Shown here one piece after another: positions 29,494 through 49,474 of a DNA stretch of 64,000 nucleotides (within the stretch, counting starts at the first letter, position 1; each line of letters begins with the position of its first letter). This DNA comes from Acidobacteriota bacterium. Lineage in GTDB: Bacteria > Acidobacteriota > Blastocatellia > Pyrinomonadales > Pyrinomonadaceae. The notes beneath the pieces were generated by a model. It was not told where the DNA came from. It did no database searches and saw nothing but the letters and a program-made list of their open reading frames with translations. The DNA lies in contig RFGC01000035.1 in the NCBI GenBank assembly GCA_003697135.1, positions 1 through 64,000 on the forward strand, given 5' to 3'. Position numbers and translations under genes: made by a program.

Positions 29494-30642
29494 CTAATCA
29501 GCCTGCCGCCTCATAAAAGTCGGAATAGTTATGTCTTCCCTCATCTGCGTTTTCTCAGCTTCAGTTTGATGATAGGAAGATCGAAGATCGTAAACTCTCA
29601 GATTTGACTTCTCTGCTGGCTTTTGACTCATTGCAGCACGTGTTTCAAACCCAGTTGCTATAACCGTTACCTTTACTTCATCTTCCATTGAGTTCTTGAT
29701 AACAGTTCCGAAAATTATGTTCGCATCTTCATCAGCCGCTTCGTAAACCATGGCTATTGCTTCCTCAATATCATTCAAAGGCATATTCTCAGAACCAGTG
29801 AAGTTTATCAAAGCGCCTTTTGCACCTTTTATAGAGTTTTCTTCTAACAGTTTCGACTCAATCGCCGCCTTCATTGCTTTTACAGCCGCGCCTTCACCTT
29901 TCGCTCTTCCTATGCCCATCAAAGCCACTCCCATTCCCTTCATCACCGCTCTAACATCGGCAAAATCAAGATTAACAACACCGGTCTCTGTCACCAATTC
30001 ACTGATTCCTTGAACTGCTTGCAAAAGCACATCATCAGCACGGCGGAAAGCTTCCATGATAGAAATCTTCTCATCAACTTCCTTGAGCTTTGAATTCGGT
30101 ATAGTGATGATTGTATCTACCGAACCGCAAAGCTCTTGTAGCCCTCTTTCAGCTTGCATCATCCGCTTCTTTCCCTCAACGGTGAAGGGTTTCGTAACAA
30201 CAGCAACCGTCAAGATGCCAAGTTCCATAGCTAAAGCCGCTATGACAGGTGCGGCACCTGTTCCTGTGCCGCCACCAAGCCCAGCCGTAACAAACACCAT
30301 ATCAGCACCTTGCAAAATATCTATAAGCCTCTCGGTGTCTTCCAAGGCCGCTTCTTTTCCTATCTCTGGATCAGAGCCAGCTCCAAGTCCTCTGGTTAGA
30401 CTGCTACCTATCTGAACTTTTATCGGTGCCTTTGAATTCCTCAAAGCTTGAATATCAGTGTTAACCGCTATGAACTCAACTCCCTCGATCCCGGCTTCGA
30501 TCATGCGATTGACGGCATTTCCACCTCCGCCGCCAACACCGATAACCTTGATCTTTGCTCCTACCATTAAGTCATCATCAGGCTCGATGATGCTTGGAGC
30601 TATTTTATCCATCAAAAATTTTTCGGTTAGTTTATCAGCCAT
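29494..30642 (-). CDS. ftsZ: Cell division protein FtsZ
   Basis: A 382-residue tubulin homologue that forms the Z ring. The GTP-binding signature GGGTGTG lies at 123-129, with [12 protein letters not shown] near 36-47 and NTD at about 61-63. The T7-loop synergy residues are in the NLDFADVR segment. The C-terminal binding peptide is [12 protein letters not shown], for FtsA/ZipA-type partners. The linker is short. The ATG at 30642 was preferred to an upstream GTG (30660), as AAGGGAAG precedes it. It is the last gene of the dcw cluster, 122 bp after ftsA. Confidence 0.98.
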
Positions 30643-30764
30643 AATCTTTCTTCCCTTCACCAGATTTTCAAACTGCCAATACCACTAGCTCGGTTTGTTC
30701 CAAGATGTTGTGCTTACATCGCAAAAGAATACAACAAGTTGCGCCAAGAAATCCAATCTAAACT

Positions 30765-32003
30765 TCACAACGTCATAAATTTTTCTCGAAAAATTCCAAG
30801 CCATTGTGCAACACGCCTTGCCGCTGATTTGCTTGGAGAAGTCCGAAGTTGAAGTTCCATGGAAGCCAGAGCCAATCCGCAGGCTGTAGCCCACGCAGGC
30901 GTCTGAATTTCATCAATCAAACCACCGAAAATATCGCTTCTTGGCACACCTATTCTTGTTGGTGCGTCGAAAACCTGCTCGGCTATTTCAACCATTCCGC
31001 GAATCAATACGCTTCCACCTGTTAGAACAACTCCGCTGGAAATTTGCCTTTTCGACAAATTGATTTCATGCGCAACATGCTGAAATAGCTCAATCGCACG
31101 TGGCGACATTATATCGCATAAAATTTCCTTCGACAGCCCTCTTTTTTCATTTCGACCAACCGGAGTAATCTCGATTATTTCTTGCTTTTCCCGCTCATCC
31201 ATCAAAAACGAAGCTACACACCCATAGTTTCTTTTTATTCGCTCGGCTTCAGGGATCGAAACCCGCAAACCATGGGCTATGTCTCTTGTAAAATACATCC
31301 CGCCAAAAGGAAAAATCGCAGTATGCCTTACCGCCCCACGCTCAAAAATCATCAAACTAGTTATCTCAGAACCCATGTTAACAAGTGCTGCTCCGTATTC
31401 TTTATCATCGTCTGTAAGAGTGCTTTCAGCAGCGGCTAACGGTTCAAGCGTCATTTTTTCTATTTCCAAACCCGCATTGTGAATCGCCTTTACAAGGTTC
31501 TGTCTGCCCGCGCTCGGACTTGTAACAACATGAACACGACTTTCTAGCCTTGCACCAGTCATTCCCACAGGCTCGATTATCCCGTCCTGCCCATCAACAA
31601 TAAATTCTTGCGGTATTCGCTCGACTATCTCCCAACCAGCAGGAAGCGACATTGCACTTGCAGATTCCATCGCCCGCGCAACATCTTCTTCGGTAATCTC
31701 TCTTCCTGCCCCTGCTACAGCAACTACACCTTGTTTGTTCTCACCTCTCAAATGCTCACCCGAAATGTTTATAGTGACCTTTTGAATCTCCAAACCGCTA
31801 ACTCTTTCTGCTTCTTCCACGGCTTGCCTTATGGAATCTGTGACAGCCTCAGTCGCAGTCACAATTCCTCTTCTCATACCCTTAGCTTCCGCTTCACCGA
31901 TGCCTACAATATCCAAAGTTCCCTTCTCAGAGAGTTCACCAATAATGCATCTGATTTTGCTGGTTCCTACGTCTAATCCTACTGCTTGAACAACCCGACT
32001 CAT
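30765..32003 (-). CDS. ftsA: Cell division protein FtsA
   Basis: A 412-residue actin-like protein that tethers FtsZ to the membrane. It begins VVQAVGLDVGTSKIRCIIGEL (phosphate 1 motif), contains the 1C SHS2 insertion with VTINISGEHLRG, and has phosphate 2 and adenosine motifs in GAALVNMGSEITSLMIF and GVVLTGGSVLIRGM. The C-terminus (ARRVAQWLGIFREKFMTL) is a basic amphipathic helix, the membrane-targeting sequence. GGAGAAGGGAAG before the ATG at 32003 decides the start. Confidence 0.97.
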   Translation of the reverse strand: MSRVVQAVGLDVGTSKIRCIIGELSEKGTLDIVGIGEAEAKGMRRGIVTATEAVTDSIRQAVEEAERVSGLEIQKVTINISGEHLRGENKQGVVAVAGAGREITEEDVARAMESASAMSLPAGWEIVERIPQEFIVDGQDGIIEPVGMTGARLESRVHVVTSPSAGRQNLVKAIHNAGLEIEKMTLEPLAAAESTLTDDDKEYGAALVNMGSEITSLMIFERGAVRHTAIFPFGGMYFTRDIAHGLRVSIPEAERIKRNYGCVASFLMDEREKQEIIEITPVGRNEKRGLSKEILCDIMSPRAIELFQHVAHEINLSKRQISSGVVLTGGSVLIRGMVEIAEQVFDAPTRIGVPRSDIFGGLIDEIQTPAWATACGLALASMELQLRTSPSKSAARRVAQWLGIFREKFMTL

Positions 32004-32054
32004 CTTCCCTTCTCCAAACAAACAAGTTTTATTGAACTAAATCTCATCCCGATC

Positions 32055-32861
32055 TTACAAATGCCTAAACCTAACAATCACGTCTTCTCTTTGTAAAACA
32101 ACTGCTTCAATCTCTTTTCCGCGTCCTTTCAGCACTTCCAGTGCTTTGAGAACAGATTTGCCGAAACTATCTTTATCCGGAAAAATTGCGACCTTCTCAC
32201 CCGAATCTTCAACAAAAATCTGCGGTTCCGACAGATTGGAAAGATTCACAGCCTTGATTTGATCCTCAATTCCCATTTTCTTGAATTCATCTCTCATGGT
32301 AATCGCCATCTTTACACGCTCTCGGTTTTCCTTATTCGCCTTATCGCTTTTGTTTTGCTCTAGCCCCAGCAAAACCCAGTTTATTTCCTCTTGCCGAGCC
32401 TTCTTTAGAACTTGCCCTTCGTCGTCTATCCAAAAATAATCAGAGCCAATCTGAGCAACCAACTGAGGTATTCTCTCAACAACACTCACCCTGATTGTGC
32501 TCGGTAAAATCTTGCTTACCACAGCTTGCTTTATCATCGAAATATCCTCAATTTTCTCCCTAATCGAATCAATATCAGCACTCCAAACACTTTTTCCTAC
32601 GGTTTCAACGCGCACGATTCGCTCGATCTCATCTTTCGCAACTCGATTCGCCCCGTAAATCTCGATATTCTTGACCCTAAAAAATGAAGACTCAGTCAAA
32701 TTCTGATAAAGCAAAAAGCTCACAAATCCTAAGCAGAACAAAATCAAACAAAGCAACAGAAACGGCAAAACAGATGTGAAGAAAAACCCGCCTTGCCTTT
32801 TCTTAGGCAAAGACGCATTGCTTGTTTTGCGCTTAGCAAGCTTTTTCTGCTTTACCGTCAT
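32055..32861 (-). CDS. ftsQ: Cell division protein FtsQ/DivIB
   Basis: A 268-residue bitopic membrane protein. It has a basic cytoplasmic N-terminus (1-25), one transmembrane helix (about 27-51), a POTRA domain beginning [21 protein letters not shown] (about 59-79), and a beta domain (about 130-265). It links early and late divisome proteins through FtsL/FtsB partners. It overlaps the murC stop by four bases (ATGA), so translation is coupled. Confidence 0.93.
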
Positions 32862-34249
32862 GGCATTTCTCTCTTTTTCAAAGCTTCCAAAAATTGATCG
32901 GAAAGCTTGGTTACGCTTCCGGCTCCAAGCGTAATCACCAAATCACCTTCCTGAAGTCTTGGCAAAATCTTGTCTAGAGCGCCTTCAATATCGCCAATAT
33001 AGTTTGCGTCTTTGTGTCCGAATTGCTTGATTTTCTCTGTAAGCACTTCCGAAGTTACGCCCTCAATCGGTGGTTCGCTTGCAGGATAAATATCAAGAAC
33101 AAACAAAACATCGGCATTATTGAAAGACCTTGCAAAATCATTCATCAAGTCGTGCGTTCTCGTGTAGCGATGAGGCTGAAAAATAACCACTGTGCGTCTG
33201 CCTTCAGAGCTTCTTTTAGCCGCATCTAAAGTGGCTAAAATCTCCGTAGGATGATGCCCATAGTCATCAACCACCATGATTCCTGCAACCTCGCCTTTAA
33301 TTTGAAATCGCCTGTTGGCATTTTTGAAGACTCTGAAGCCTTCTGCAATTATTTCAAATTCAACTCCTAACTCTGTCGCTACCGCAGTTGCAGCAAGAGC
33401 GTTGTAAACGTTATGTTTTCCGGGAACAGGCAGTTCTATCTTGCCCAAAACTTGCGTGCCTTTGTAAACCGTAAAACTTGAGCCGAAGTGATCGTTGTAT
33501 TGAATCTCATGAGCCGAAATATCAGCCTGCGCAGTCAAACCGTAAGTCACACGCTTTCTCTTAACATGCGGAATCATCGCTTGCACATTCGGATCGTCTA
33601 AACAAAGCACTGCCGCTCCGTAAAAAGGCACTTTATTGACAAAATCAGTAAAGCACCTTATCACGTCCTCTATGTCTCTGTAAGAATTCATGTGTTCGCG
33701 ATCAATGTTCGTAACTACTGCAATCGTCGGATAGAGCATTAAGAAAGACCTATCGCTTTCATCAGCCTCTACTACGAACCAATCGCTTTGCCCTAAACGC
33801 GCATTCGAGCCAAGAGTATCAACAACACCACCGACAATCGTTGTCGGGTCTATGCCCGCATGTCCTAGTATCGTTGCCACCATCGAAGTTGTAGTGGTCT
33901 TTCCGTGTGAACCAGCAACAGCAACACTGTAAGGTTTTAATCTCATCAATTCTGAAAGCATTTCAGCACGCGGGATAACCGGAATGTTCTTTTCTCTTGC
34001 CGCTACTATTTCGGGATTATCCTCCGTAACAGCCGAAGAATAAACCACAACGTCCGCAGTGCCGATATTTTCTGCTTTATGCCCCTCAAACACCTTCGCA
34101 CCCAAAGTTTCCAGCCTCTCAGTAACACTAGACTTTTTCAAATCAGAACCGGAAACCTTGAATCCCAAATTACAAAGCAGTTCGGCAATTCCCGACATTC
34201 CGATACCACCGATTCCGACAAAGTGAACATGCTTTACGTGGCGAAACAT
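32858..34249 (-). CDS. murC: UDP-N-acetylmuramate--L-alanine ligase
   Basis: A 463-residue Mur ligase that adds L-Ala to UDP-MurNAc in the cytoplasm. The N-terminal Rossmann domain starts [17 protein letters not shown] (9-25). The ATP-binding P-loop is GSHGKTTT (113-120). The central domain holds [14 protein letters not shown] and the C-terminal domain [10 protein letters not shown] and FQPHRYTRT, all MurC-specific spellings. It overlaps murG by one base and ftsQ by four. Confidence 0.98.
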
Positions 34250-35340
34250 TACCTTTTCTTCCTTCCTAACTCCAAAATCAATTTAGCAACAGCCTCAGCC
34301 GCATCAGGCTTTGCAAATCTCTTCACCGCTTTTTCCATCTCAGTTATTTTTTGCGGTGAATCTGCAAGCTCGATGATTTTTTCTGCCAAAACCTTTCCAC
34401 TTAAATCCTTTTGAAGAATCATCTGCGTAGCTCCCGCCCTTTGAAATGCCTCAGCATTTTTGCGTTGGTGATCGTCGGCGGCGGTTGGAAGCGGAATCAT
34501 AATTGAAGCTTTACCAGCCGCCGCTAGTTCTGCGCATGTTGTAGCACCTGCTCTCGACACTATCAAATCATGCTCTGCAAAAAACTTAGGCATGTCTTGA
34601 ATGTATCGAAAAATCTCATAATTCTTCCAACCAGTCGCTTGATAAGCCTGAAGCACCCTTTCGTAATCTTTCTCGCCAGTTTGATGCGTTAGCTTAAGTT
34701 TATCTTGGTATTTTTCCAAATAAGGTAGTGCTTCAATCACCGCATCGTTTATCGCTCTTGCTCCTTGCGAACCTCCGAAAATTAAGACCGAAATCAAGTC
34801 TTTATCTCTGCTTTTCGGTTTTATCTCAAAAAACTCCCGACGAACCGGGTTTCCCGTTACTACTGCTTTTTTGCCGAAATAAAGCGTAGCTTCTTCAAAT
34901 GTCAAAGCCGCCTTTTTAACAAACCAAGCCAGCACACGATTAGTAAATCCCGGCAGTGCATTCTGCTCAATAACCAACGTCGGGAAGCCCATCAAATAAG
35001 CCATCATAAGAACAGGTCCCGAAACGTATCCACCTGCGCCAACCACAACATCAGGCTTAAATTCCCTTAACAAACGCCATGCTTGAAGAAAGCTCTTCGG
35101 CAACACCAAAATTCCCTTCAACTTTCCCCAAAATCCGACGCTTTTCAAGCCTAAACTCTCGATAAAAGATATTTCAAAACCGTTTTCTGGAACTATCCTG
35201 GCTTCAAGTCCTCGTCTGGTGCCTACAAAGCGAATAATACCGCCACATCGCTGTATTTCTCTTGCAACAGCGATTCCCGGATAGATATGCCCACCTGTTC
35301 CACCTGCCGCTATCAAAACTTTCAATCCCTCACAATCCAT
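34249..35340 (-). CDS. murG: UDP-GlcNAc transferase MurG (lipid II formation)
   Basis: A 363-residue GT28 enzyme that transfers GlcNAc to lipid I at the inner face of the membrane. The acceptor-side glycine loop is [14 protein letters not shown] (13-26). The donor-side signatures are [34 protein letters not shown] and [17 protein letters not shown]. The ATG at 35340 is used; an upstream TTG adds two residues. It lies between ftsW and murC in the dcw cluster. Confidence 0.97.
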
Positions 35341-35391
35341 CGTCAATTCATCGAAAATAAACCTAACATCACAAATCCAATTTTCAGCCCA

Positions 35392-36573
35392 TCAAGCCTT
35401 AACTTTTCTGATTCTTCTCCGAATCGGCTTTATCGGTTTAGGCTCTTCAACATGCACAAAGCCCGCATATTGCGACAGATTAAGCAAGATACCAACACCC
35501 AAAAGAGTCGTTATAATCGAAGAACCGCCATAAGAAATGAAAGGCAACGGTATTCCCTTTGCCGGTAAAATCGAAATAGCCACGGACAAGTTGAAAAGCA
35601 CTTGGAAAATTATACCCGTGACGATTCCGATACCAAGAAGCATTCCGAATCTATCAGGAGCAGACATAGCGGCTCTTGAAGCACGCCATAGAAAAAGCCC
35701 AAAAACAAAAACCAATGCCATTGTCCCTATCAAACCTAACTCTTCACCTATAACTGCAAAGATGAAATCCGAATAAGGATAAGGTAGATAAAAAAGTTTC
35801 TGTTGTCCTTTGGCAAATCCTTCGCCGAAAACTCCACCAGAACCTATCGCATAAAGAGATTGACAAACCTGATAGCCTGCTCCCGAAGCGTTTTCAGGTG
35901 CACAAGGATCAAGAAAAGCAGTCAAACGTCGCAAACGCCAAGGAGAAAAAATCAATGCAGTAACCAAAAACCCCAAAATTGGCAAGATTATTAAGACCAA
36001 ATGCCAAATTTTCGCTCCCGCACTGAAGTAAACCACAAAGAAAATTGCACATAAAACCATCGTCGTTCCAAGATCAGGTTCTACAAAAATCAATCCGCAC
36101 AAGACAGCCAAAACGAGCAAACATGGTAGCAAAGACTCTTTAAGCGAATGCATTTTTTCTTCCCTGTCTGCCAGAAACGAAGCCAAGAATATCGGCAAAG
36201 CAAGTTTTGCAAGCTCCGAAGGCTGGAATGAAAACCCGCCGAATCGAATCCAGCGTTGCGCTCCATTAACAGGCGGAAACAAAAACACCAAACACAAAAG
36301 CACTATGGTTAATGCTAAAAACCCATAAACTACGGCTTTCTTTTGCAAAACATGATAATCAAACTTCGTAAAAAACCACATCAGAAGAATGCCCACCAAG
36401 GCAAAAACTGATTGTTTGTAAAAGTATGCGTATTCGGTTGGCCCTTGAGTGCTGTTTTTCGTTTCCTGAAGTGAAATCATGGCGGAAGCGGAATAAACCA
36501 TGACAGCGCCGAAAAGCGCAAGCGTTGTCGCAATCGCAAATAAAAACCAATCTACTCTAAGTTTTTTCGCCAT
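35392..36573 (-). CDS. ftsW: SEDS glycosyltransferase FtsW
   Basis: A 393-residue polytopic membrane protein of the SEDS family, with about 10 transmembrane helices. SEDS markers are GAQRWIRFGGFSFQPSELAK, FVEPDLGTTMVL and LPFISYGGSSIITTLLGVG. The FtsW assignment over RodA rests on its place between murD and murG. It polymerises lipid II at the septum with its cognate class B PBP, here the ftsI gene of the same cluster. A basic tail (IRRRIRKVKA) is cytoplasmic. Confidence 0.95.
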   Translation of the reverse strand: MAKKLRVDWFLFAIATTLALFGAVMVYSASAMISLQETKNSTQGPTEYAYFYKQSVFALVGILLMWFFTKFDYHVLQKKAVVYGFLALTIVLLCLVFLFPPVNGAQRWIRFGGFSFQPSELAKLALPIFLASFLADREEKMHSLKESLLPCLLVLAVLCGLIFVEPDLGTTMVLCAIFFVVYFSAGAKIWHLVLIILPILGFLVTALIFSPWRLRRLTAFLDPCAPENASGAGYQVCQSLYAIGSGGVFGEGFAKGQQKLFYLPYPYSDFIFAVIGEELGLIGTMALVFVFGLFLWRASRAAMSAPDRFGMLLGIGIVTGIIFQVLFNLSVAISILPAKGIPLPFISYGGSSIITTLLGVGILLNLSQYAGFVHVEEPKPIKPIRRRIRKVKA

Positions 36574-36616
36574 AATGCCAAAATCTAGGCCGATTTTTCA
36601 TCTCAATTCAGTTCCT

Positions 36617-38029
36617 TCAGCCATTTTGCCTTTGCGTTTGCTGTCTATCGGAAAAAGCAAGTTCTTGTTTCAAGTTCAAGACCTCTTGCTTAAAAACCTT
36701 CCCACGCTCTTCAAAAGAGTTGAACATATCGAAGCTGGCACAAGCAGGCGAAAGAAGCACCAGATCGCCTTCGTGCGCATTCTGAAAAGCTAGTTTGACA
36801 GCCTCTTTCATCGAATCAGCATGGAAGATTTCACACAAGCCTTTCAGCTCTGTTTTTATCCTTTCAGCATCTTCACCGATTAACACCAGCGCACGAACCT
36901 TCTTTTCAATCAGCGGAGCAAGCGGAGTATATGGTGCATTTTTCCCGCGCCCGCCCATGATTAAAACGATTTTTCCAGCCTCATCGCTTAATGCTTCTAA
37001 CGCTTTCAGTGTCGCGTCAACGCTCGTCGCCTTTGAGTCGTTGTAAAACCGCACACCTTGAATCGTATCAACCAACTCAAGCCGATGCTCAACTCCTTTG
37101 AACGTCCGCAGAGTTTCTCTCATTGATTCCAAAGAATCTTGGCAGATATTCCAAACCGCCGCAAGCGACGCTAAAACATTTTCAACATTATGCAAACCGC
37201 GCAGCAAGATTTCATCTCGGCTGATTAAAAACTTTTCCACCTCACCATTTCTGAAAAATAGCTTTCCATCTTTCAGAAAAAAACCTTCCTCAAGTTCTTT
37301 CTTAACGGAAAAGAAAATTACTTTGGCTCTTAAGCCTTGTGCCCAACTAGCTGTGACTTCGTTATCAGCATTCAATACGGCAATATCTTGCGGTGTTTGA
37401 TTCATGAAAATTCTATGTTTCGCAGCGGCATAATCAGAAAAGAAATCGTATCTGTCAAGATGGTTCGGCGTCACGTTTAATGCAACTGCGACGTTTGGAC
37501 GAAAGAGTTTTATCGTTTCAAGCTGAAAACTCGAAACTTCAATAACGTTCCAGGTATCTTCCGTCGAAGTTTCAATAACCTCTGTCAAAGGTAAACCGAT
37601 GTTGCCTGCAACCTGCACTTTTTTGCCTGCATTTTTCAAAAGTTCGCCGATCAAGGTAGTAGTCGTTGTTTTGCCGTTCGTTCCCGTGATTGCAACTATT
37701 TTGCCCTTCAAGAATCTGTAGGCAAGCTCGATTTCTCCGATAACTTCACCGCCTTTGCGATCAACGTATCTAGCCGGGATTGTGTTTGTAGGCACTCCGG
37801 GACTTATAACCAAAAGGTCTATTTGATCCAAAAGCCATGAGGGAATCTGCCCATCAATCAAACCAACACCGAATCTTTCTTTAAGCGAGCGCGCTTCTTC
37901 TGTCCATTCGGCAATAGGTTTTTTGTCGTGAAGCGCTACTATCGCACCGCGACTTGCCAGAAACTTTGCCGCCGCAACTCCGCTTTTTCCTGCTCCTAAA
38001 ACCAAAGTTTTTTTCTTGTAAAGTTCCAT
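36617..38029 (-). CDS. murD: UDP-MurNAc-L-alanine--D-glutamate ligase
   Basis: A 470-residue Mur ligase that adds D-Glu. The N-terminal domain begins TLVLGAGKSGVAAAKFL. The P-loop is GTNGKTTT (116-123). Further MurD features are VIEVSSFQLET, NVTPNHLDRYDF and NDSKATSVDATLKAL. The C-terminal part includes GGRGKNAPY and LLSPACASFDMF. It lies 5 bp after mraY and 43 bp before ftsW. Confidence 0.97.
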   Translation of the reverse strand: MELYKKKTLVLGAGKSGVAAAKFLASRGAIVALHDKKPIAEWTEEARSLKERFGVGLIDGQIPSWLLDQIDLLVISPGVPTNTIPARYVDRKGGEVIGEIELAYRFLKGKIVAITGTNGKTTTTTLIGELLKNAGKKVQVAGNIGLPLTEVIETSTEDTWNVIEVSSFQLETIKLFRPNVAVALNVTPNHLDRYDFFSDYAAAKHRIFMNQTPQDIAVLNADNEVTASWAQGLRAKVIFFSVKKELEEGFFLKDGKLFFRNGEVEKFLISRDEILLRGLHNVENVLASLAAVWNICQDSLESMRETLRTFKGVEHRLELVDTIQGVRFYNDSKATSVDATLKALEALSDEAGKIVLIMGGRGKNAPYTPLAPLIEKKVRALVLIGEDAERIKTELKGLCEIFHADSMKEAVKLAFQNAHEGDLVLLSPACASFDMFNSFEERGKVFKQEVLNLKQELAFSDRQQTQRQNG

Positions 38030-38034
38030 AAAAC

Positions 38035-39183
38035 TTATCTCAGCTTCAGCGTTGAAAGACTAAGCAACGCAAAAAGTATGGCTATTATCACGAATCGAAA
38101 AACTATCTTCGGTTCTTCCCAACCCTTCATTTCAAAGTGATGATGAAGCGGTGTCATTCTGAAAACTCTCTTTCCCACACCCGTTTTAGGGTCTTTCGTT
38201 AACTTGAAAACCGAAACCTGAATCATTACGGACAAAGCTTCAAGGATAAAAACTCCGCCGATAAAAGGCAAGAGAAACTCTTGCTTTGTCAAAATTGCAA
38301 CTGTTCCGACCGCACCACCAATTGAAAGACTTCCGACATCGCCCATAAAGACTTCGGCTTTCGGTGCGTTGAACCACAAAAAACCTAAAGATGCACCGAC
38401 CATAGCGCCACAGAAAATAGTTAATTCTGCCGCTTCGGGCCTATGAGTAATGTCAAGATATTCAGCCCAGCGCCTATCGCTTGCAACATAAGTTAGTGCA
38501 GTCAGAGCTGTCATCGCTATAAAAGTAACACTCGCCGCCAGCCCATCAAGTCCATCTGTGAGATTTACCGCATTCGACGAACCTAGCAAAACGAATATAA
38601 TGAAAAACAGGTAAATGTAAGGTCCTACGTAAGTTATACCGTAAGGCTCCGCTGTAGCTTTGAAGAAAGGAATGCTCAAGTTCCAAGGATAATTTCCCCA
38701 CATCCACAGCACGAACCAAACGCCTATAGCTACAATCAACTGTCCGAGTAGTTTCTGCTTGCCTGTTAAACCGAGACTACGCCGCTTGACTATCTTGATG
38801 TAATCATCGGCAAACCCTATCAAAGCGAAAAGAGTTGTTGCAATTAAAGCTATCCAAAGATAAAGGCTATCGAGCCTCGCCCAAAGAAGCGTTGAGATAA
38901 AAACTGAACCTATTATCAAAACTCCGCCCATCGTCGGAGTTCCCTTTTTTCGGTAGTGCGACTGTGGTCCTTCTTCACGGATTTCTTGTCCAAACTTCAA
39001 TTCAGCAAGTTTTCTTATCACAAAATTACCGAAAAGCAATGAAACTAAAAGCGAAGTTGCCGTAACCATCGCTGTTCTGAATGTTACATATTGCACAACG
39101 TTCAGAGCTTTGAAAAAATATGACTCACAGCCTAAACCGCACTGGGCTTGATAAATCAACTTGTAAAGAATGTAGTAAAGCAT
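38035..39183 (-). CDS. mraY: Phospho-MurNAc-pentapeptide translocase MraY
   Basis: A 382-residue integral membrane enzyme that makes lipid I from UDP-MurNAc-pentapeptide and undecaprenyl phosphate. Diagnostic segments are [27 protein letters not shown] (catalytic Asp pair), [13 protein letters not shown] and the cytoplasmic [14 protein letters not shown]. About ten transmembrane helices are apparent. It lies between murF (32 bp) and murD (5 bp). Confidence 0.98.
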
Positions 39184-39215
39184 CGCTTCCCTGCAAAAAT
39201 TAACAAACAGCCGAA

Positions 39216-40664
39216 TTATTTGGCAATATCGAAATGCGAGCGCAGTTTTTCAACTATCTTTTCCATGCGCACGCTTCGCGAACCCTTAACCAAAATCAAA
39301 TCGCCTTCCTTGACTTCACCTAAAATGTAATCACCAGCCTTTTCCGAATCTTCAAAAAATTCAACTTCTTTCAAACCAGCTTCTTTCGCACCTTCAATCA
39401 GTCTCTTTGCCAAACTCCCAACACCCACGAGAAAATCAACACCGCTTTCGGTGATTTTTTTTCCAACTTCGTAATGAATTTTCTCGGCTTCTGTCCCAAG
39501 TTCCATCATCTCACCTGCCATTACTATTTTTCGCTTCGCATTCTTGCCATTTTCAACAATGGTCTTGACCATCGAAAGCAAAGCATCAGGATTGGAATTA
39601 TAAGAGTCATTCACCACAACAAATCCTTTTTCAAATCGCAAAATTTCGCCGCGCTGTTCTGGTGCAGTAACCTTGCTTAGAGCTTCAGCAATTTCTTCAG
39701 CCGACATTCCGAAAACATATCCGACAGCAGAAGCGGCGAGAGCGTTCATCACGTTATGCTTGCCGTCTAACGGGAAATTTACCTTTGCACTGCCGCTTGG
39801 GAGTTTCAAAGTGAAGGTTGTTTTGCCGAATCCGCCGAAACTTATTTCTTCAGCCATAACTTCGGCGCTACGCTCGATTCCGTAAGTTATCGTCTCTCCC
39901 TTGCTCAAACTCCTCATTGCCGAAACTCTAAAGTCATCAGCGTTTAAGATAGCAACCCCACCCGGCTTCATTCCTTCAACGATTTCGGCTTTGGCCTTTG
40001 CGATATTTTCTATCGAACCGAGATGCTCTATGTGAACCGGCAAAACATTCAAAACAACCGCAACGTCTGGTGGAGTGATTCGGCAAAGCCTTGCTATTTC
40101 GTTATACGGCGTTGACATAGCCATTTCCAGAACGGCAAGATCGAAGTCTTGATTTTCAAGTAGCTTCAAAACCGTCAGCGGATGCCCGATATTGTTGTTG
40201 TGATTCTTCTCATTGCTTAAAACCTTCTTCCCTGCAAAGCGCAAAAGGTGTGCTGTGATTTCTTTTGCCGTCGTTTTGCCTGCACTTCCCGTTATTCCTA
40301 CCACAGGCTTGTTCCATTTTTGATAAACACCTTTTGCTAAAAGTTGAAATGCATAGATCGCATCACCAACCAAAAGAAGTTTTCCCGCAAAAGGCTCAAG
40401 CGCTGGTTTATGTTCGTTGAACCTATCAGGACGAACGACAGCCGCAATAGCTCCGTTTTCAAATGCTGTCGGCACATAAACGGTTGCATCTTCAAAATCA
40501 CCGTTGAAACAATTGTTTCGATAATCAGGTTGAGAAAATGCGAAAAACAAATCGCCAGGTTTGGTTTTGCGCGAGTCTATCGAAACACAGCCAAACTCAG
40601 CCTCTAGAATTGCTTGCTCAACTGCTTCTGCATTCATCAACTTTGCCGCTTCACTCAATTTCAT
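39216..40664 (-). CDS. murF: UDP-MurNAc-tripeptide--D-Ala-D-Ala ligase
   Basis: A 482-residue Mur ligase that attaches D-Ala-D-Ala. The P-loop is GSAGKTT (126-132) in [17 protein letters not shown]. MurF-like segments are [27 protein letters not shown] and [15 protein letters not shown]. murE, normally just before murF, is absent, and murF instead overlaps the end of ftsI by 14 bp. The identity as MurF and not MurE is supported by the NNIGHPLT and EM(A)MS segments. Confidence 0.95.
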
Positions 40665-42579
40665 CTTTCTTAAATCTTCCCTTTCTATTTTCTGTCTCCT
40701 TGTTACCTTTAACTTCTGAAGTTTTTTCTTTGCCTACAACCGTTCTGGTTTTCTTGGCATAATCTGTTGTTTCATTTTTCAGGCTAGCCAGCGAGTTCAC
40801 AGAGTTTTTCAAAATCGCCTGTTGAGATTCTATAGTTTGCTTGTCTGGTGGGATTTTCATTTCTGGCAAGATGGCTTCGGCGATTTCGCGAAAAATAGGT
40901 GCCGCTACATCGCCGCCGTTGCGTGCGGCTACTCTCGGTTCATCAATCACAACAGCAATCACAACCGATGGATTCTCAATCGGCGCAAAACCTATGAACG
41001 ACGAAATATACTTTGCCTCGTTGTATCTTTTCAGTTTCTCATCGTATTTCCATGCCGTCCCGGTTTTGCCACCAGCAGTATAACTTTTAAGCAATGCTTT
41101 TTTCCCCGTGCCTTCGAGAACAACATATTCAAGCATCTGTCTGAGCTTTCTTGCCGCTTCAGGACTTAAAACGCGAAATTCCCTTACTTCAGGCTTGTAA
41201 AAAACATTGTCTCCACTACGGATTTCCTTGATGATATACGGAGAAACTCTCACACCGTCGTTTGCAATTGCCGCAAAAGCTGAAGCCATCTGCAATGCTG
41301 TAACTCCTATCTCGTAGCCTATTGAAGTTGAAGCAAGACTCAATCCCGACCATTTTTCAGGTGAGTTTACTAATCCCGCAGATTCAGCAGGTAACTCAAT
41401 GCCAGTCTTTTCTCCAAAACCAAATGCTTTAATGTAATGGAAAAAAGCCTCCTTTCCTATTGCTTGTGCCGTTTTTATTGCGACCAAATTACTTGAAACC
41501 GCTATTGCCTCAAAATATGAGATTTTTTCTTTGCAGTGTTTATCGCTAAATCTTCTATCAGCTATTTCGATGTATCCTTTATCACAACTAATTGTTTGGG
41601 CTGGATTTACAATGATTTGCTTGTCAACAGCCGCACCGTAGGTAACGATTTTGAAGATCGAACCGGGCGAGAAGACATTTTGAATAGCTTTGTTAGCGAA
41701 GAACTCACTTTGAAATTCTCTGTATCTGTTAGGATCGAACGTTGGATAATTCGCCATTGCTAAAATTTCACCTGTCTTTGGATTCAAAACTATAGCCGTT
41801 CCAGATTTTGCCTTTGCTCTTTGAACGCCTTCTTTCAAGGCTTGCTCGACTTTGTATTGAATCGAAGCTGAAATCGTCAGGTAAACGTCTTTCGGCGGAT
41901 CGCTTTCTTGCACATCAGACTCATAAACTCTTCCAAGCCGATCCCTCTCTTGCCATTTTTCAACTACTTGACCGCGCAAAAACTTCTCCTGTGAAAGCTC
42001 AATTCCCGCTTGCCCAACATCGTCCACGTTGCTAAAGCCTATAACGTGTGCACCCAAACCCCCGAGCGGATAGTAACGTTTTTGCTCCTCTTGCCAATAC
42101 AAACCTTTGAATTTCGGCTCGTCGGCTTTTCTTATGTCTGTTCGCAATAATTCATTGATTTTCTCAACCTGAGCTTCATCTAATTTCCTCGCTAGAAATA
42201 AAAATCTCCTACCTGCATTTTTCGCTTCTTTCAAATCCCTTAAAACATCTTCCGCTTTCAGATTCAGAACGCTTGCCAAAACCTCGGCTATCTTTTCTTC
42301 ATCTTCGACTTCTTGCGGATTTGCAACTAAGGACTTTGCTTTAATACTCATTGCCAAAGTGCGGCCGCTAGTGTCGTAAATTGTTCCACGAAGCGTTTTA
42401 GTTACAATTTTTTCACGCCTCTGAGCGAGTGCTTTCTGACGCCAAAATTCATGCTGTTCAACTTGAAGATGAACAAGCCTGAAACAAATACCTCCAAACC
42501 AAATCAGAAACACTGCAACAACAAACAAAAACCTTGTTGAAACCATCTGAGCGTATTTTTGGCTTGTTCGGCTCTGCAT
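40651..42579 (-). CDS. ftsI: Class B penicillin-binding protein, septal transpeptidase FtsI
   Basis: A 642-residue membrane-anchored transpeptidase. It has an N-terminal transmembrane helix (about 13-35), a PBP dimerisation domain (about 55-230) and a transpeptidase domain. The catalytic SxxK is SIFK in SPGSIFKIVT (about residue 305), SxN is SSN in AVSSNLVAIK, and KTG is in AGGKTGTAWKYD. All three motifs are intact, so it should cross-link septal peptidoglycan. A C-terminal tail rich in Lys/Thr/Glu (about 600-642) is low complexity. Position in the dcw cluster with ftsW supports FtsI. Confidence 0.95.
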   Translation of the reverse strand: MQSRTSQKYAQMVSTRFLFVVAVFLIWFGGICFRLVHLQVEQHEFWRQKALAQRREKIVTKTLRGTIYDTSGRTLAMSIKAKSLVANPQEVEDEEKIAEVLASVLNLKAEDVLRDLKEAKNAGRRFLFLARKLDEAQVEKINELLRTDIRKADEPKFKGLYWQEEQKRYYPLGGLGAHVIGFSNVDDVGQAGIELSQEKFLRGQVVEKWQERDRLGRVYESDVQESDPPKDVYLTISASIQYKVEQALKEGVQRAKAKSGTAIVLNPKTGEILAMANYPTFDPNRYREFQSEFFANKAIQNVFSPGSIFKIVTYGAAVDKQIIVNPAQTISCDKGYIEIADRRFSDKHCKEKISYFEAIAVSSNLVAIKTAQAIGKEAFFHYIKAFGFGEKTGIELPAESAGLVNSPEKWSGLSLASTSIGYEIGVTALQMASAFAAIANDGVRVSPYIIKEIRSGDNVFYKPEVREFRVLSPEAARKLRQMLEYVVLEGTGKKALLKSYTAGGKTGTAWKYDEKLKRYNEAKYISSFIGFAPIENPSVVIAVVIDEPRVAARNGGDVAAPIFREIAEAILPEMKIPPDKQTIESQQAILKNSVNSLASLKNETTDYAKKTRTVVGKEKTSEVKGNKETENRKGRFKKDEIE

Positions 42580-42700
42580 TTTAATTTGCAGTCAAAAACC
42601 CTAAAAACTTCTCAAAAACTCGCTTTTGGCAGATTCAACAAATCATCGAGAATCCTAAGACTTGTAGATTGGCTTCGCCCAGCAGGGCTTTTATCAAAAG

Positions 42701-43243
42701 TCATGGATTTTTTGATTCTTTTTGGCTGATATTTTTCAAACTACCATCCTTGTTGCGAATGACGCTCCGATTTTCCATACCCTCAGCCATTAAAACTGTG
42801 CTTCTGCCTTTTGTGTCTTCCTTCTTTTGTTCTTCAGCTTTTCGAGTTTCTGAATCCTCTTCAGAAGTTTGTTTTTTCATGATCTCGATATTCTCAGCAG
42901 AAATTTCTCGAAAACCGAGCTTTCGAGCCGTTTTTTTGATCTCAGCTGGCGAGAGAGCTTCTTCTTTTTGTAATTTCAGTCTTCTTTGTTCATTTTCCAG
43001 CTCTTCGATTTGTTTGAGGAGTTTTTCGTTTTTGATGCTGTAATCCATTGCCTCAAAGTGCTGTTTCGCCGCATAGATAAACCCTGAAGCCAAAAATACT
43101 ACGCAGAAAAGCACCATTAGGCAATACCTCCAAGGTATCGGATCGCGCTCACGACGCACTTTATTAGAAGCGCAGGCTCCCGTGAAAACACCAGCTTTGT
43201 AATTTTTCGGTCTGTTCGCTACTCTTCGCATCTTTTCAGACAA
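42701..43243 (-). CDS. ftsL: FtsL/DivIC-like septum protein with long acidic tail
   Basis: A 180-residue bitopic protein. A basic N-terminus (1-37) leads to one transmembrane helix (about 39-59) and a coiled coil (about 66-97, IKNEKLLKQIEELENEQRRLK). The ARKLGFREISAENI segment after it is typical of FtsL/DivIC. The last ~70 residues are highly charged and low complexity, unusually long for FtsL. It overlaps rsmH by 25 bp; Met5 (43231) is an alternative start. The assignment rests mostly on position and topology. Confidence 0.8.
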   Translation of the reverse strand: MSEKMRRVANRPKNYKAGVFTGACASNKVRRERDPIPWRYCLMVLFCVVFLASGFIYAAKQHFEAMDYSIKNEKLLKQIEELENEQRRLKLQKEEALSPAEIKKTARKLGFREISAENIEIMKKQTSEEDSETRKAEEQKKEDTKGRSTVLMAEGMENRSVIRNKDGSLKNISQKESKNP

Positions 43244-44172
43244 GCTCTCAACTTGGCACTTCTCGATCTAGGATTTTCTTTCTTTTCGGCTTCACTCGGC
43301 CTTACGGGTTTACGCGTTAAAATCTCAATTAGCCTTTTTGCACCGCAAACACATTCAGGAAAATTTTTCGGGCACATGCATTTTCCCGAAAGCCTCAAAA
43401 AACTTGTCTTAACCAACCTGTCTTCAAGGGAATGAAAACTAATAACAACAAATCGTCCGCCATTTTTCAAAACATCAATTGCATCAAAAATAAACTTTTC
43501 CAAAACTTCCAATTCGCGATTCACGGCAATTCTTAAAGCCTGAAAAGTTCGTGTCGCCGGATGAATTTTCTCACGCCTTCGACCGCCAATTACTTCCTCG
43601 ACTAATTTAGCCAGTTCCAGCGTTGTTTCAATATGCTTTCCCGCTTCCCTATACATAACAATTTTCTTGGCTATTTGCCGCGCAAACTTCTCTTCACCAT
43701 AACGCAAGATAATATCGGCTATCTCTTCTTCGCTCAAAGTTTTCAATAAATCTGCGGCTGTTCGTGTTTGCGCATCTGGGTTCATGCGCATATCAAGTTT
43801 TGCATCGAACCGAAAACTAAACCCTCGCTCTTTATCATCGAGTTGTAAGGACGAAACTCCCAAATCCGCCAAGATTCCATCAACTTTTTCAACTCCTGAC
43901 CGATTCAAAACCAGCTTTATATCGGCAAAATTAGCATGGATAATCTTAACTCTATCGCCAAATCTCTTTAGTCTCTGCTTAGCTATCTCGATCGCTTGTT
44001 TGTCTTGATCAATCCCGACTAGCTCGACGTTTTCGGACCTGTCCAAAATCGCTTCTGCATGTCCACCAAGCCCGATCGTTGCATCAACAAAAACGCCTCT
44101 GATCGGCGATAAATACTTTATAGCTTCTGCTAGAAGAACAGGCTTGTGTTGATTTTCAAAGAGCATTGCCAT
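43219..44172 (-). CDS. rsmH: 16S rRNA m4C1402 methyltransferase RsmH (MraW)
   Basis: A 317-residue AdoMet-dependent methyltransferase that N4-methylates C1402 of 16S rRNA. It begins HKPVLLAEAIKYL, followed by the AdoMet site VDATIGLGGHAEAIL (29-43), LVGIDQDKQAI, and ILADLGVSSLQLDDKERGFSFR. It also has VVISFHSLEDRLVK and a C-terminal C-x-C zinc-like CMCPKNFPECVCG segment. Its ATG overlaps the mraZ stop (TAATG), indicating coupled translation. Confidence 0.98.
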   Translation of the reverse strand: MAMLFENQHKPVLLAEAIKYLSPIRGVFVDATIGLGGHAEAILDRSENVELVGIDQDKQAIEIAKQRLKRFGDRVKIIHANFADIKLVLNRSGVEKVDGILADLGVSSLQLDDKERGFSFRFDAKLDMRMNPDAQTRTAADLLKTLSEEEIADIILRYGEEKFARQIAKKIVMYREAGKHIETTLELAKLVEEVIGGRRREKIHPATRTFQALRIAVNRELEVLEKFIFDAIDVLKNGGRFVVISFHSLEDRLVKTSFLRLSGKCMCPKNFPECVCGAKRLIEILTRKPVRPSEAEKKENPRSRSAKLRACLKRCEE

Positions 44173-44615
44173 TAAATTCCAAGTCTTGCCAAAATTGCGG
44201 CGTGTTCCTCGCTGAACGGGTTTTCAGCCAAGAATTTTTCAATCTTTTCAAGATTCCAAACATTCAAAAAAGTCAACTGCCCAAGAACTGCAACTTCTCC
44301 GTAAATTTCAGCTTTACGCCTAAGCAAAGGATGAATCAAAACTCTACCTTGATTGTCAATCTCTGCTTCTTGTCCCCAAAAACTCGTTCCCATAACATAA
44401 ATAATTCTGGCTTTTTCGTTTGTTGGCAGAAGAGCTAGTTTCTTTTCGATTGTTTCCCACTCTTGAAGCGGGAAAATCTGAACACTTTCTCCTGTAAGGC
44501 TTGTCACATAAACTTCTCTTGAACCATATTTCTGCTCTATCTTACGCCTAAAGTGAGTTGGAATTTTAAGCCTTCCTTTTTCATCTACTTTGGCAGTGTA
44601 ATTACCTCGTAACAT
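44172..44615 (-). CDS. mraZ: Transcriptional regulator MraZ
   Basis: A 147-residue double SpoVT/AbrB-like DNA-binding protein, first gene of the dcw cluster. The two copies are MLRGNYTAKVDEKGRLKIP (N-terminal DxKGR motif) and EAEIDNQGRVLIHP (second DxxGR motif). MraZ rings bind tandem boxes upstream of their own operon; boxes of this kind are visible at 44668-44707. The ATG at 44615 fits the family start MxRGxY; a TTG nine bases upstream is rejected. No clear Shine-Dalgarno precedes the ATG, and a long palindrome lies close by. Confidence 0.96.
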   Translation of the reverse strand: MLRGNYTAKVDEKGRLKIPTHFRRKIEQKYGSREVYVTSLTGESVQIFPLQEWETIEKKLALLPTNEKARIIYVMGTSFWGQEAEIDNQGRVLIHPLLRRKAEIYGEVAVLGQLTFLNVWNLEKIEKFLAENPFSEEHAAILARLGI

Positions 44616-44624
44616 CTTTAACAA

Positions 44625-47146: not shown

Positions 47147-47689
47147 TCATGATGCAAAACCATAAGCTCGAAGTCTTGATAAAAAATCTTCCAAAATGAT
47201 TGCAGCAGCTACCTGATCACGATGGCGGTTTATCTCTCGTATTGAATAACCCTTTGCTTTGAGAAGCCTTTCAGCCTCGTATGAAGTAAGCCTTTCATCT
47301 TGCAAAAAAACAGGGATTTTTAGGCTCAGAGAATAATTTCGGTAAAGTCTCTTAACGTGCGAAGTCATCTCGTTTTCAGTGCCGTCGAGATTTAGCGGTA
47401 AGCCCAGAACTAAAGCCACTACGTTGTATTCTTCTATGAGTTTCATTGTATCTTTAAGTAACTTTTTCCAGCTTCCTCTTTGCAAAGTTACAAGTGGCTT
47501 AACCGAGATTCTCAATTCATCGCAGACAGCGACTCCAACGTGCTTGAGTCCTATATCAAGAGACAGAATTCTGCCGCTTTGCGGAAGTTTCTTTAGAATT
47601 AACTCTCTTTCTTGCACCGAAGGAACTCTTGATGGATAATTATTTATCGGCAGACGGATTTCGTCAAGTGATGGTTTGAAATATGTCAT
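47147..47689 (-). CDS. ruvX: YqgF/RuvX-family putative Holliday junction resolvase
   Basis: A 180-residue RNase H-fold nuclease. Catalytic acids are Asp45 in ILSLDIGLKHVGVAVCD, the Glu region in LVLGLPLNLDGTENEM, and the last Asp in HRDQVAAAIILEDFL; QDERLTSYEAE is also typical. The family is linked to pre-16S rRNA processing as well as recombination. It has an unusual N-terminal extension of about 38 residues. Its ATG overlaps, on the opposite strand, the start codon region of the S41 gene; a GTG at codon 25 (47617) is an alternative start. Confidence 0.88.
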   Translation of the reverse strand: MTYFKPSLDEIRLPINNYPSRVPSVQERELILKKLPQSGRILSLDIGLKHVGVAVCDELRISVKPLVTLQRGSWKKLLKDTMKLIEEYNVVALVLGLPLNLDGTENEMTSHVKRLYRNYSLSLKIPVFLQDERLTSYEAERLLKAKGYSIREINRHRDQVAAAIILEDFLSRLRAYGFAS

Positions 47690-48954
47690 TCAAAAGTAAA
47701 GTAACCTTTGTTTTTCTTTCTGCAGTTGTAGCGGCTTATGTATTCGTTGGCGGCTGGCTTGGCACAAAAGCACAACAGCAGATAAACGATCCGGGTGCGC
47801 AAATGCGCATCTTCGAGAGCGTTCTACAGCATATTCAAAACGATTATGTTGATGAACCAGACCTGGCAAAAGTTAGAGCTGGAGCTTTGAGAGGCTTAGC
47901 CTACGGACTTGATCCTTATTCTTCATATCTCACGGCTGAACAAGTTAAAGATTACTTATCGAATAAAAATGTTAAACTAGTAGGTATTGGTGCTGAATTT
48001 TCGCAAGTTTCAGGCTATCTATATGTAATCTCGACCATTAAAGGTTCACCAGCCGATAAAGCAGGGCTAAAGGCAGGCGATGTGATTGAATACATAGAAA
48101 ATAAGGCAACACGCGATATTTCGCTTTACGATGCGCAACAATTGCTTTTAGGCGAGCCGGGTTCAAAGGTAAAACTTAGAGTTCTGCGGAGTGGTTCAAG
48201 ACCGCAAACTATCATAGTTGAGCGCGGAAGCTACAAAATACCAGAAGCAGAAAGCCGAATGGAAGCTGGCAAAATCGGCATAATCAAGGTTTACAGTCTC
48301 GAAGAAGGCGAAGCAAAAGACATTCGGAATCAGCTACAGAATCTTTTGAAACAAGGTGCTGAGAAAATCATTCTCGATCTGCGAGGCGTTGCGGCCGGCA
48401 CATTAACCGAAGCCGTAGAAGTTGCTAATCTCTTCATCAAAGAAGGCACTTTGGCGCAGGTTATTGGTCGAGAAAACAAGGTTTTGAGAACCTACACGGC
48501 AGACCCATCGAAGCATGTTTTTTCAGGTCCTCTGGTTGCTTTAATAGACATTGGCACTGCTGGAGCGGCAGAAGTGGTAGCATCGGCTATACTGGAATAC
48601 TCGCGCGGCGAAGTCGTCGGTGAAAAAAGCTTCGGCGCAGGAACAGAACAAGAACTCTTCACACTCCGTAGTGGCGATGGATTTCTTTTAACAGTTGCGA
48701 AATGGGCTTCTGGTAAAGGCAAGCCTTTCTTAGCAGATGAAAGATCAAACTCAGGCGTGAAACCTTCAGTAGAGGTTAAACGAAGCGACTCGCCTGATTC
48801 AACTGATTTGGAAAATATACTCGATCAAGATGAAGAAACACCGCAACAGCAGCAGCAGCAAACACAACCTAAACCAAACGAGCAAGAAGACATTCAGCTC
48901 AAGAAGGCTTTGGAAATTCTTCAAGGAAAGTCGGCGGTAGCAACGCCAAAGTAA
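47683..48954 (+). CDS. S41-family protein lacking catalytic Ser/Lys (CtpA-like pseudoprotease)
   Basis: A 423-residue homologue of carboxyl-terminal processing proteases. It has a signal/anchor helix (about 6-27), an N-terminal helical region with GLDPYSSYLTAEQ, a PDZ domain (about 95-180, GIGAEFSQVSGYLYV and GSPADKAGLKAGDVI), and a tail-protease core with IILDLRG. The nucleophile segment reads GTAGAAEVV where active enzymes have SASASE, placing Gly294 at the catalytic Ser. The lysine segment reads SFGAG, with Ala319 for Lys. The C-terminus has a short poly-Gln tract (QQQQQQ). It probably acts as a PDZ-bearing binding protein. Divergent from ruvX. Confidence 0.85.
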   Translation: MSFKSKVTFVFLSAVVAAYVFVGGWLGTKAQQQINDPGAQMRIFESVLQHIQNDYVDEPDLAKVRAGALRGLAYGLDPYSSYLTAEQVKDYLSNKNVKLVGIGAEFSQVSGYLYVISTIKGSPADKAGLKAGDVIEYIENKATRDISLYDAQQLLLGEPGSKVKLRVLRSGSRPQTIIVERGSYKIPEAESRMEAGKIGIIKVYSLEEGEAKDIRNQLQNLLKQGAEKIILDLRGVAAGTLTEAVEVANLFIKEGTLAQVIGRENKVLRTYTADPSKHVFSGPLVALIDIGTAGAAEVVASAILEYSRGEVVGEKSFGAGTEQELFTLRSGDGFLLTVAKWASGKGKPFLADERSNSGVKPSVEVKRSDSPDSTDLENILDQDEETPQQQQQQTQPKPNEQEDIQLKKALEILQGKSAVATPK

Positions 48955-49027
48955 AAAGCTATAGGATAGATTAACAATCGGAAGTGCTATTGAATTGTTA
49001 ATTTCTAAATTGCTAGAATCGGCTCTT

Positions 49028-49474
49028 GTGGAACTCAAAATACGTCTCGTAGAAGAAAAAGACTTTGCACAATGGTTACGTCTGCGCAAGTTTCTGTGGG
49101 ATCAGCTAACCGAGGAAGAACACCTCGAAGAAATGCGAGGTATTTACCACAACCCTGAAACTCAACTCGTCTTAGTTGCTGAATTAGAAAATGGGAAGAT
49201 AGTAGGTTTTTTAGAGGCAAGCATACGTCCTTTTGCTGAAGATTGTTTGACCGATAGGGTCGGATACTTGGAAGGTTGGTTTGTAGAACCAGAGTTTCGT
49301 AAAAAAGGCATCGGCAGAGCATTAGTCGAAGAAGCAGAGGAATGGGCTAGAAGTCATGGATGCACCGAGATGGCTTCTGATTCTGAAGTAGGTAATGAAT
49401 TGAGTATAATTGTTCATTCCCGTCTAGGCTATACGGAAACATCATGCCTTATACACTGGAGAAAGGAACTTTAA
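49028..49474 (+). CDS. GNAT acetyltransferase resembling aminoglycoside 6'-N-acetyltransferases
   Basis: A 148-residue GNAT protein. The acetyl-CoA site is EPEFRKKGIGRALVEEAEEWA (R/Q-x-x-G-x-G/A). VGYLEGWFVEPEFR, SHGCTEMASDSE and HSRLGYTET closely follow the spelling of the AAC(6')-I group. Its natural substrate is unknown; many chromosomal relatives in environmental bacteria are not resistance genes. The GTG at 49028 is used; a TTG at 48995 would add 11 residues. The gene is convergent with dapF (42 bp). Confidence 0.8.
   Translation: MELKIRLVEEKDFAQWLRLRKFLWDQLTEEEHLEEMRGIYHNPETQLVLVAELENGKIVGFLEASIRPFAEDCLTDRVGYLEGWFVEPEFRKKGIGRALVEEAEEWARSHGCTEMASDSEVGNELSIIVHSRLGYTETSCLIHWRKEL

Follow-up and report, generated by a model that had tools for sequence, protein, structure and literature searches.

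A widely conserved CtpA-type S41 homologue of Acidobacteriota without the catalytic serine and lysine

The 423-residue open reading frame at positions 47683 to 48954 (+ strand, as are all features of its product given below) of the window, the whole 64,000-nucleotide stretch of contig analysed here, encodes a tail-protease homologue whose cutting residues are gone. Family membership by sequence is clear. The protein exceeds the curated Pfam cut-offs for Peptidase_S41 (PF03572, 9e-32, 110.4 bits against a cut-off of 24) and for a PDZ domain (PDZ_6, 7.8e-12), and it also passes the NCBIfam model for C-terminal processing peptidases (CTPs) (prc, TIGR00225, 226.2 versus 218.6 bits). In alignment with canonical S41 proteins, Gly294 (48562 to 48564) occupies the nucleophile Ser position and Ala319 (48637 to 48639) that of the catalytic Lys, 25 residues apart; the three canonical S41 proteins of the same genome carry SASASE and FGKG opposite these residues. 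The first-pass annotation had named exactly this pair and spacing, and was equally right that the fold markers and the PDZ domain remain; the export signal it named corresponds to an N-terminal hydrophobic helix in an AlphaFold2 model (residues 3 to 30).

A column comparison of 54 catalytically dead with 33 canonical sequences reveals that the loss reaches beyond the two residues. The Ser is found in 1/54 dead versus 33/33 canonical sequences and the Lys in 0/54 versus 33/33, so that the Ser-Lys(-Gln) site of an active CTP is missing from the target and across its clade, although Gln323 (48649 to 48651), the third triad residue, is kept (48/54 dead, 33/33 canonical). The conserved x-N-P-G-G loop, generally taken in the CTP family as the oxyanion loop, is replaced by GVAAG (residues 235 to 239, 48385 to 48399); Asn236 persists in 5/54 and Gly238 in 16/54 dead sequences, versus 33/33 canonical sequences for each. 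Tyr79 (47917 to 47919) stands at the position of His84/85 of CtpA, where His occurs in 0/54 dead versus 33/33 canonical sequences; the Asn, the second Gly pair and the His are thus conserved throughout the canonical set (33/33). The hinge Phe/Tyr has mostly given way to Pro, Lys, Ala and others in the dead set, and the first Gly of the PDZ loop (Gly101) is retained in only 14/54. The roles of these positions follow H. pylori CtpA (PMC12749690), P. aeruginosa CtpA (PMC11021448) and CtpB (PMC3808539).

Structural residues are strictly maintained: D77, G103, D232, R234, E297 and G318 occur in all 54 dead and all 33 canonical sequences, and the PDZ domain is kept throughout the dead set. Gly294 itself, present in 44/54 dead sequences, is conserved rather than drifting. 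Misalignment is ruled out: the TAGAAE and FGxG anchors can be placed without ambiguity in all orthologues, and a search for alternatives turned up no newly conserved Ser/Thr/Cys or Lys/His. Proteolysis by another residue or mechanism could find support in the retention of Gln323, Glu297, Asp232 and Arg234 around the site, and in two relatives, described below, that retain Ser and Lys; against it, no Ser, Thr or Cys has become conserved near the active site of the dead-clade sequences, Lys and His are conserved nowhere in them, and the oxyanion loop is altered as well. We regard continued protease activity as very improbable. The pseudoprotease status proposed by the first-pass annotation is instead strongly supported on sequence grounds, through the clade-wide loss of Ser and Lys, of the oxyanion Asn and Gly, of the His and of the hinge aromatic, with no replacement nucleophile or base. 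The protein also has the marks of a conserved pseudoenzyme, namely a catalytic loss shared by the clade, intact frames and selection on the protein; between the target and a same-genus homologue, dN is 0.126 with dS saturated.

The substitutions recur far beyond the host genome (2.79 Mb, 47 contigs), whose nearest named relatives are MAGs of the Pyrinomonadaceae, the family of Pyrinomonas methylaliphatogenes K22 (Acidobacteriota, Blastocatellia). Orthologues are found in 40/40 nearest genomes (Pyrinomonadaceae/Blastocatellia), with the copies in G002 and G018 ending at contig edges. In all of them the Ser is absent (Gly, rarely Ala or Asn), and no copy that extends over the Lys position has Lys there (Ala, Ser, Val, Ile, Met or Thr instead). 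The best 80 loci of a named-genome scan, nearly all with Acidobacteria in their titles, carry Gly (77) or Ala (3) in place of the Ser, and Ala (77) or Ser (3) in place of the Lys. The alignment with S41 members that had been suggested as a check thus finds both substitutions conserved across relatives, a recurrence that argues against chance. A sequencing error or an isolated pseudogene is ruled out by the identical substitutions in all relatives with intact frames. Seven plasmid-borne relatives from other phyla carry both Ser and Lys (7/7).

At the scale of the phylum, a profile of 64 orthologues run against 199 evenly drawn Acidobacteriota genomes (E <= 1e-90) gave 90 strong matches. The active site could be read in 84, and 83 of these have no Ser-Lys pair, one of them (L087) keeping the Ser without the Lys; the remaining one is a canonical long CTP. 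Among 30 genomes below this threshold, 11 encode a short CTP-like protein (8 dead, 2 with Ser and Lys, 1 apparently active), and the others have canonical long CTPs only, or none. The dead CTP gene is therefore frequent in Acidobacteriota, though not present in every genome. The two Ser- and Lys-bearing proteins (L325 and L326, genomes G078 and G066, both of family f29) lack His79 and the hinge aromatic, along with either Asn236 or its loop context, and may represent an intermediate stage, the activation relay having been lost ahead of the catalytic pair. One branch of the dead family, drawn from several Acidobacteriota families (L210-L223), has Arg for the catalytic Lys in nearly all members and Gly (or Asn/Gln) for the Ser, another dead site that is likewise conserved. 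The fifth S41 gene of the host genome (L004, G000:C14:210826-211308, - strand) is possibly a second atypical S41 type, with the Ser kept (GSTSE), Val at the Lys position and no KGxxQ motif.

Phylogenetic analysis points to an old event. In a tree of 30 dead sequences with CTPs of Acidobacteriota, Pseudomonadota, Bacillota and Bacteroidota, computed after removal of seven discriminating columns, the dead sequences form one clade (UFBoot 92). When the most divergent short members are added, support falls to 55, and the two f29 sequences with Ser and Lys are placed within the clade, at low support. An early loss of catalysis is likely from these sequences; a single loss for the whole phylum is not firmly established, given that the value of 92 obtained with 30 dead sequences is unstable once divergent members are added.

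Structurally, the protein is predicted to retain the domain plan of CtpA. The AlphaFold2 model (mean pLDDT 88.7, pTM 0.82) begins with the hydrophobic helix (residues 3 to 30, 47689 to 47772), a signal peptide or membrane anchor whose SFRxKxxxxxxSAxxAxYAxxGG motif is conserved among relatives. An N-terminal dimerisation region (residues 37 to 76, 47791 to 47910) follows, placed by alignment with P. aeruginosa CtpA, which begins at residue 9 of that chain, the structural match beginning at model residue 30-39. The PDZ domain (about residues 100 to 182, 47980 to 48228; Pfam PDZ_6/PDZ_2) matches a CTP PDZ (6bxg, Z 14.5), the S41 catalytic-fold domain (PF03572) spans residues 197 to 365 (48271 to 48777), and a C-terminal helix around QLKKALEIL (residues 404 to 414, 48892 to 48924) resembles the CDR of CtpA in model and alignments. 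Closest in structure are the CtpA proteins of P. aeruginosa and H. pylori, at 29-30% identity, with a Z of about 38 and an rmsd of 2.7-3.4 across 342-352 residues; the match covers residues 37-421 in the profile alignment and 30-421 in the structural comparison. With both dimerisation regions present and no four-helix C-domain, the protein has the features of the CtpA subtype. It fits CtpB better in the resting (Z 35) than in the active state (Z 25), which puts the PDZ of the model close to its blocking position. The modules of the retinoid carrier IRBP/RBP3 are detected by sequence and by structure (Z 15-19). They show that ligand binding is one use to which an S41 fold can be turned, and the former active-site cleft might hold a lipid or other small molecule. 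Yet CtpA is far closer (Z 38), and the PDZ and dimerisation helices are kept, which makes such a carrier improbable.

Retention of the PDZ in all dead sequences, and of the GIGA loop in the target, would also suit the binding of peptide C-termini proposed in the first-pass annotation, in the form of a receptor or chaperone whose oligomer captures exposed protein C-termini by the PDZ and holds them uncleaved. A CtpB Ser mutant (S309A) retains an affinity of 2-10 uM for C-terminal peptides and changes shape on binding (PMC3808539), and by this analogy C-terminal peptide binding by the dead CTP is plausible. However, the hinge Phe (F105 of HpCtpA) is Leu99 in the target, and the substrate-sensing Arg (R168 of CtpB, R162 of HpCtpA, its role following PMC3808539 and PMC12749690; placed by alignment with the MRG motif of PaCtpA) is Leu156 (48148 to 48150). 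With Gly101 (14/54 only) and the sensor Arg often lost in the clade, ordinary tail recognition is disfavored, and a dedicated tail receptor seems unlikely.

The gene neighbourhood offers a hint of function. The target gene is divergent from ruvX (yqgF; 47147 to 47689, - strand; Pfam RuvX 9.7e-36) nearly throughout Pyrinomonadaceae. The start overlap with ruvX reported in the first-pass annotation amounts to 7 bp if the ruvX ATG is at 47689, but it is not a conserved trait, as the gap varies widely in relatives. Upstream of its RuvX domain this ruvX product has an N-terminal extension of ~38 residues, part of which (NYP..V.VQE) recurs in relatives, so the overlapping start may be real. Among Pyrinomonadaceae-type loci with enough upstream sequence, ruvX is present in 58/58 and mltG also in 27/58. 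At 60 loci of other families, a set that includes one canonical control (L235), mltG is adjacent to ruvX or on its far side in 26/60; one (L090) has ruvX, mltG and the dead CTP gene in that order and in a single orientation, with 34 bp separating open frames. In 15 further loci of the 60 the CTP gene is followed in the same orientation by a gene for PBP1A, a class A penicillin-binding protein, at a distance of up to about 220 bp in 11 loci and of about 1.1 kb in 4. The divergent ruvX-mltG arrangement spans many families, and the PBP1A arrangement is that of another. The mltG and PBP1A identities derive from Pfam on representatives.

In the window genome, mltG sits on a different contig from the target, and dapF and a gene for a PBP4-type carboxypeptidase are close to the target. 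A complete dcw cluster (mraZ, rsmH, ftsL, a transpeptidase, Mur ligases, an mraY-type transferase, ftsW, murG, ftsQ, ftsA and ftsZ) occupies 29494-44624 (- strand), 3 kb away. About 40 bp downstream of the target, a GNAT acetyltransferase gene (48995-49474, + strand) exceeds the NCBIfam AAC(6') group E cut-off (147.2 vs 140 bits); it recurs in a subset of Pyrinomonadaceae, in loci mostly without mltG beside ruvX. The region holds no RNA element above Rfam thresholds and no excess of promoters or terminators relative to shuffles. Through gene association (ruvX-mltG, PBP1A, dcw, dapF and the PBP4-type gene), this context suggests a role in peptidoglycan synthesis; it may also simply reflect ancestral gene order.

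A partner might alternatively be sought among the active CTPs of the same cell, with the pseudoprotease entering mixed oligomers with one of them, or delivering substrates to it, and so regulating it. The genome indeed encodes three CTPs with intact triads, 58/60 phylum genomes have a strong canonical long-type match, and a dead partner is conceivable, since dimers of PaCtpA and HpCtpA have one active subunit at a time (PMC11021448, PMC12749690). But these active CTPs are of a distinct, longer type (about 520-700 aa), in which an extended insertion precedes the C-terminal helix; shared dimer interfaces are therefore doubtful, and no conserved gene neighbourhood with long CTPs was seen. Nor was another short CtpA-type protein seen in the window genome, where the canonical CTPs have 577-612 aa, which disfavors an adaptor to an active partner of the same type. 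We consider this regulatory role unlikely.

On balance, we favor, with some reserve, a CtpA/CtpB-type protease that died long ago and that much of Acidobacteriota has retained as a non-proteolytic, oligomeric envelope scaffold. Sequence and model show that the cutting machinery and activation relay are lost while the fold and assembly regions are kept, along with long-term conservation and linkage to ruvX-mltG or PBP1A. Such a protein would either be exported through the inner membrane or stay anchored in it, would assemble through its N- and C-terminal dimerisation regions as CtpA does, and could act structurally or as a regulator, a scaffold that would hold partners in peptidoglycan synthesis without cutting them, presumably through the PDZ and former substrate cleft. 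The candidate partners, MltG and PBP1A, are proposed from gene neighbourhood. MltG is a substrate of Prc (PMC7481392), and P. aeruginosa CtpA, within CtpA-LbcA, degrades wall hydrolases (PMC11021448). As active CTPs elsewhere degrade peptidoglycan enzymes and a Ser-less CtpB binds peptides, a binding-only CTP is physically reasonable. The more specific proposal, a family of early Acidobacteriota origin that regulates peptidoglycan synthesis as a non-proteolytic oligomer by binding MltG and PBP1A, is tentative. The MltG C-terminal tail was rejected as PDZ ligand, the MltG C-termini having no common tail motif.

The dead family is not described in the literature searched on S41 pseudoproteases, inactive CTPs and bacterial PDZ pseudoproteases, a search with most subscription papers outside its scope; a 2008 survey of prokaryotic serine proteases counts inactive homologues and does not cover S41. 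New here, relative to that literature, is a widely conserved, catalytically dead branch of a known CTP family. Automatic annotation names its members 'S41 family peptidase' or 'C-terminal processing peptidase', in line with the TIGR00225 score, and protease counts therefore probably conceal a non-enzyme that occurs phylum-wide. If the cell-wall link is true, the branch would represent a second, non-degradative control of peptidoglycan enzymes by the CTP fold; if it binds MltG and PBP1A as a regulator, a family of proteases that destroy wall enzymes would here have come to scaffold them instead.

Other pseudoproteases that have lost their catalytic residues, C. difficile CspC/CspA and the rhomboid iRhoms, have signalling or adaptor roles, but belong to protease families unrelated to S41. 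IRBP/RBP3 modules share the S41 fold and are not known as proteases, but form a distant vertebrate retinoid carrier. Prc/Tsp of E. coli is likewise an S41 protein with a PDZ, and MltG is among its substrates; unlike the target, it is larger, active and works with NlpI. CtpB of Bacillus subtilis shares the fold and the position of the Ser-Lys-Gln site, with the Gln kept, whereas the target is catalytically dead, has no evident four-helix C-terminal dimer domain and lies in another genomic context. CtpA of P. aeruginosa and H. pylori is an S41 hexamer (trimer of dimers), whereas the target is modelled here as a monomer, and the Ser, Lys, His84/85, hinge Phe, sensor Arg and NPGG loop of CtpA are all replaced in it. 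In length, in fold and in the order of N-terminal dimerisation region, PDZ, cap/core and C-terminal helix, the protein resembles CtpA.
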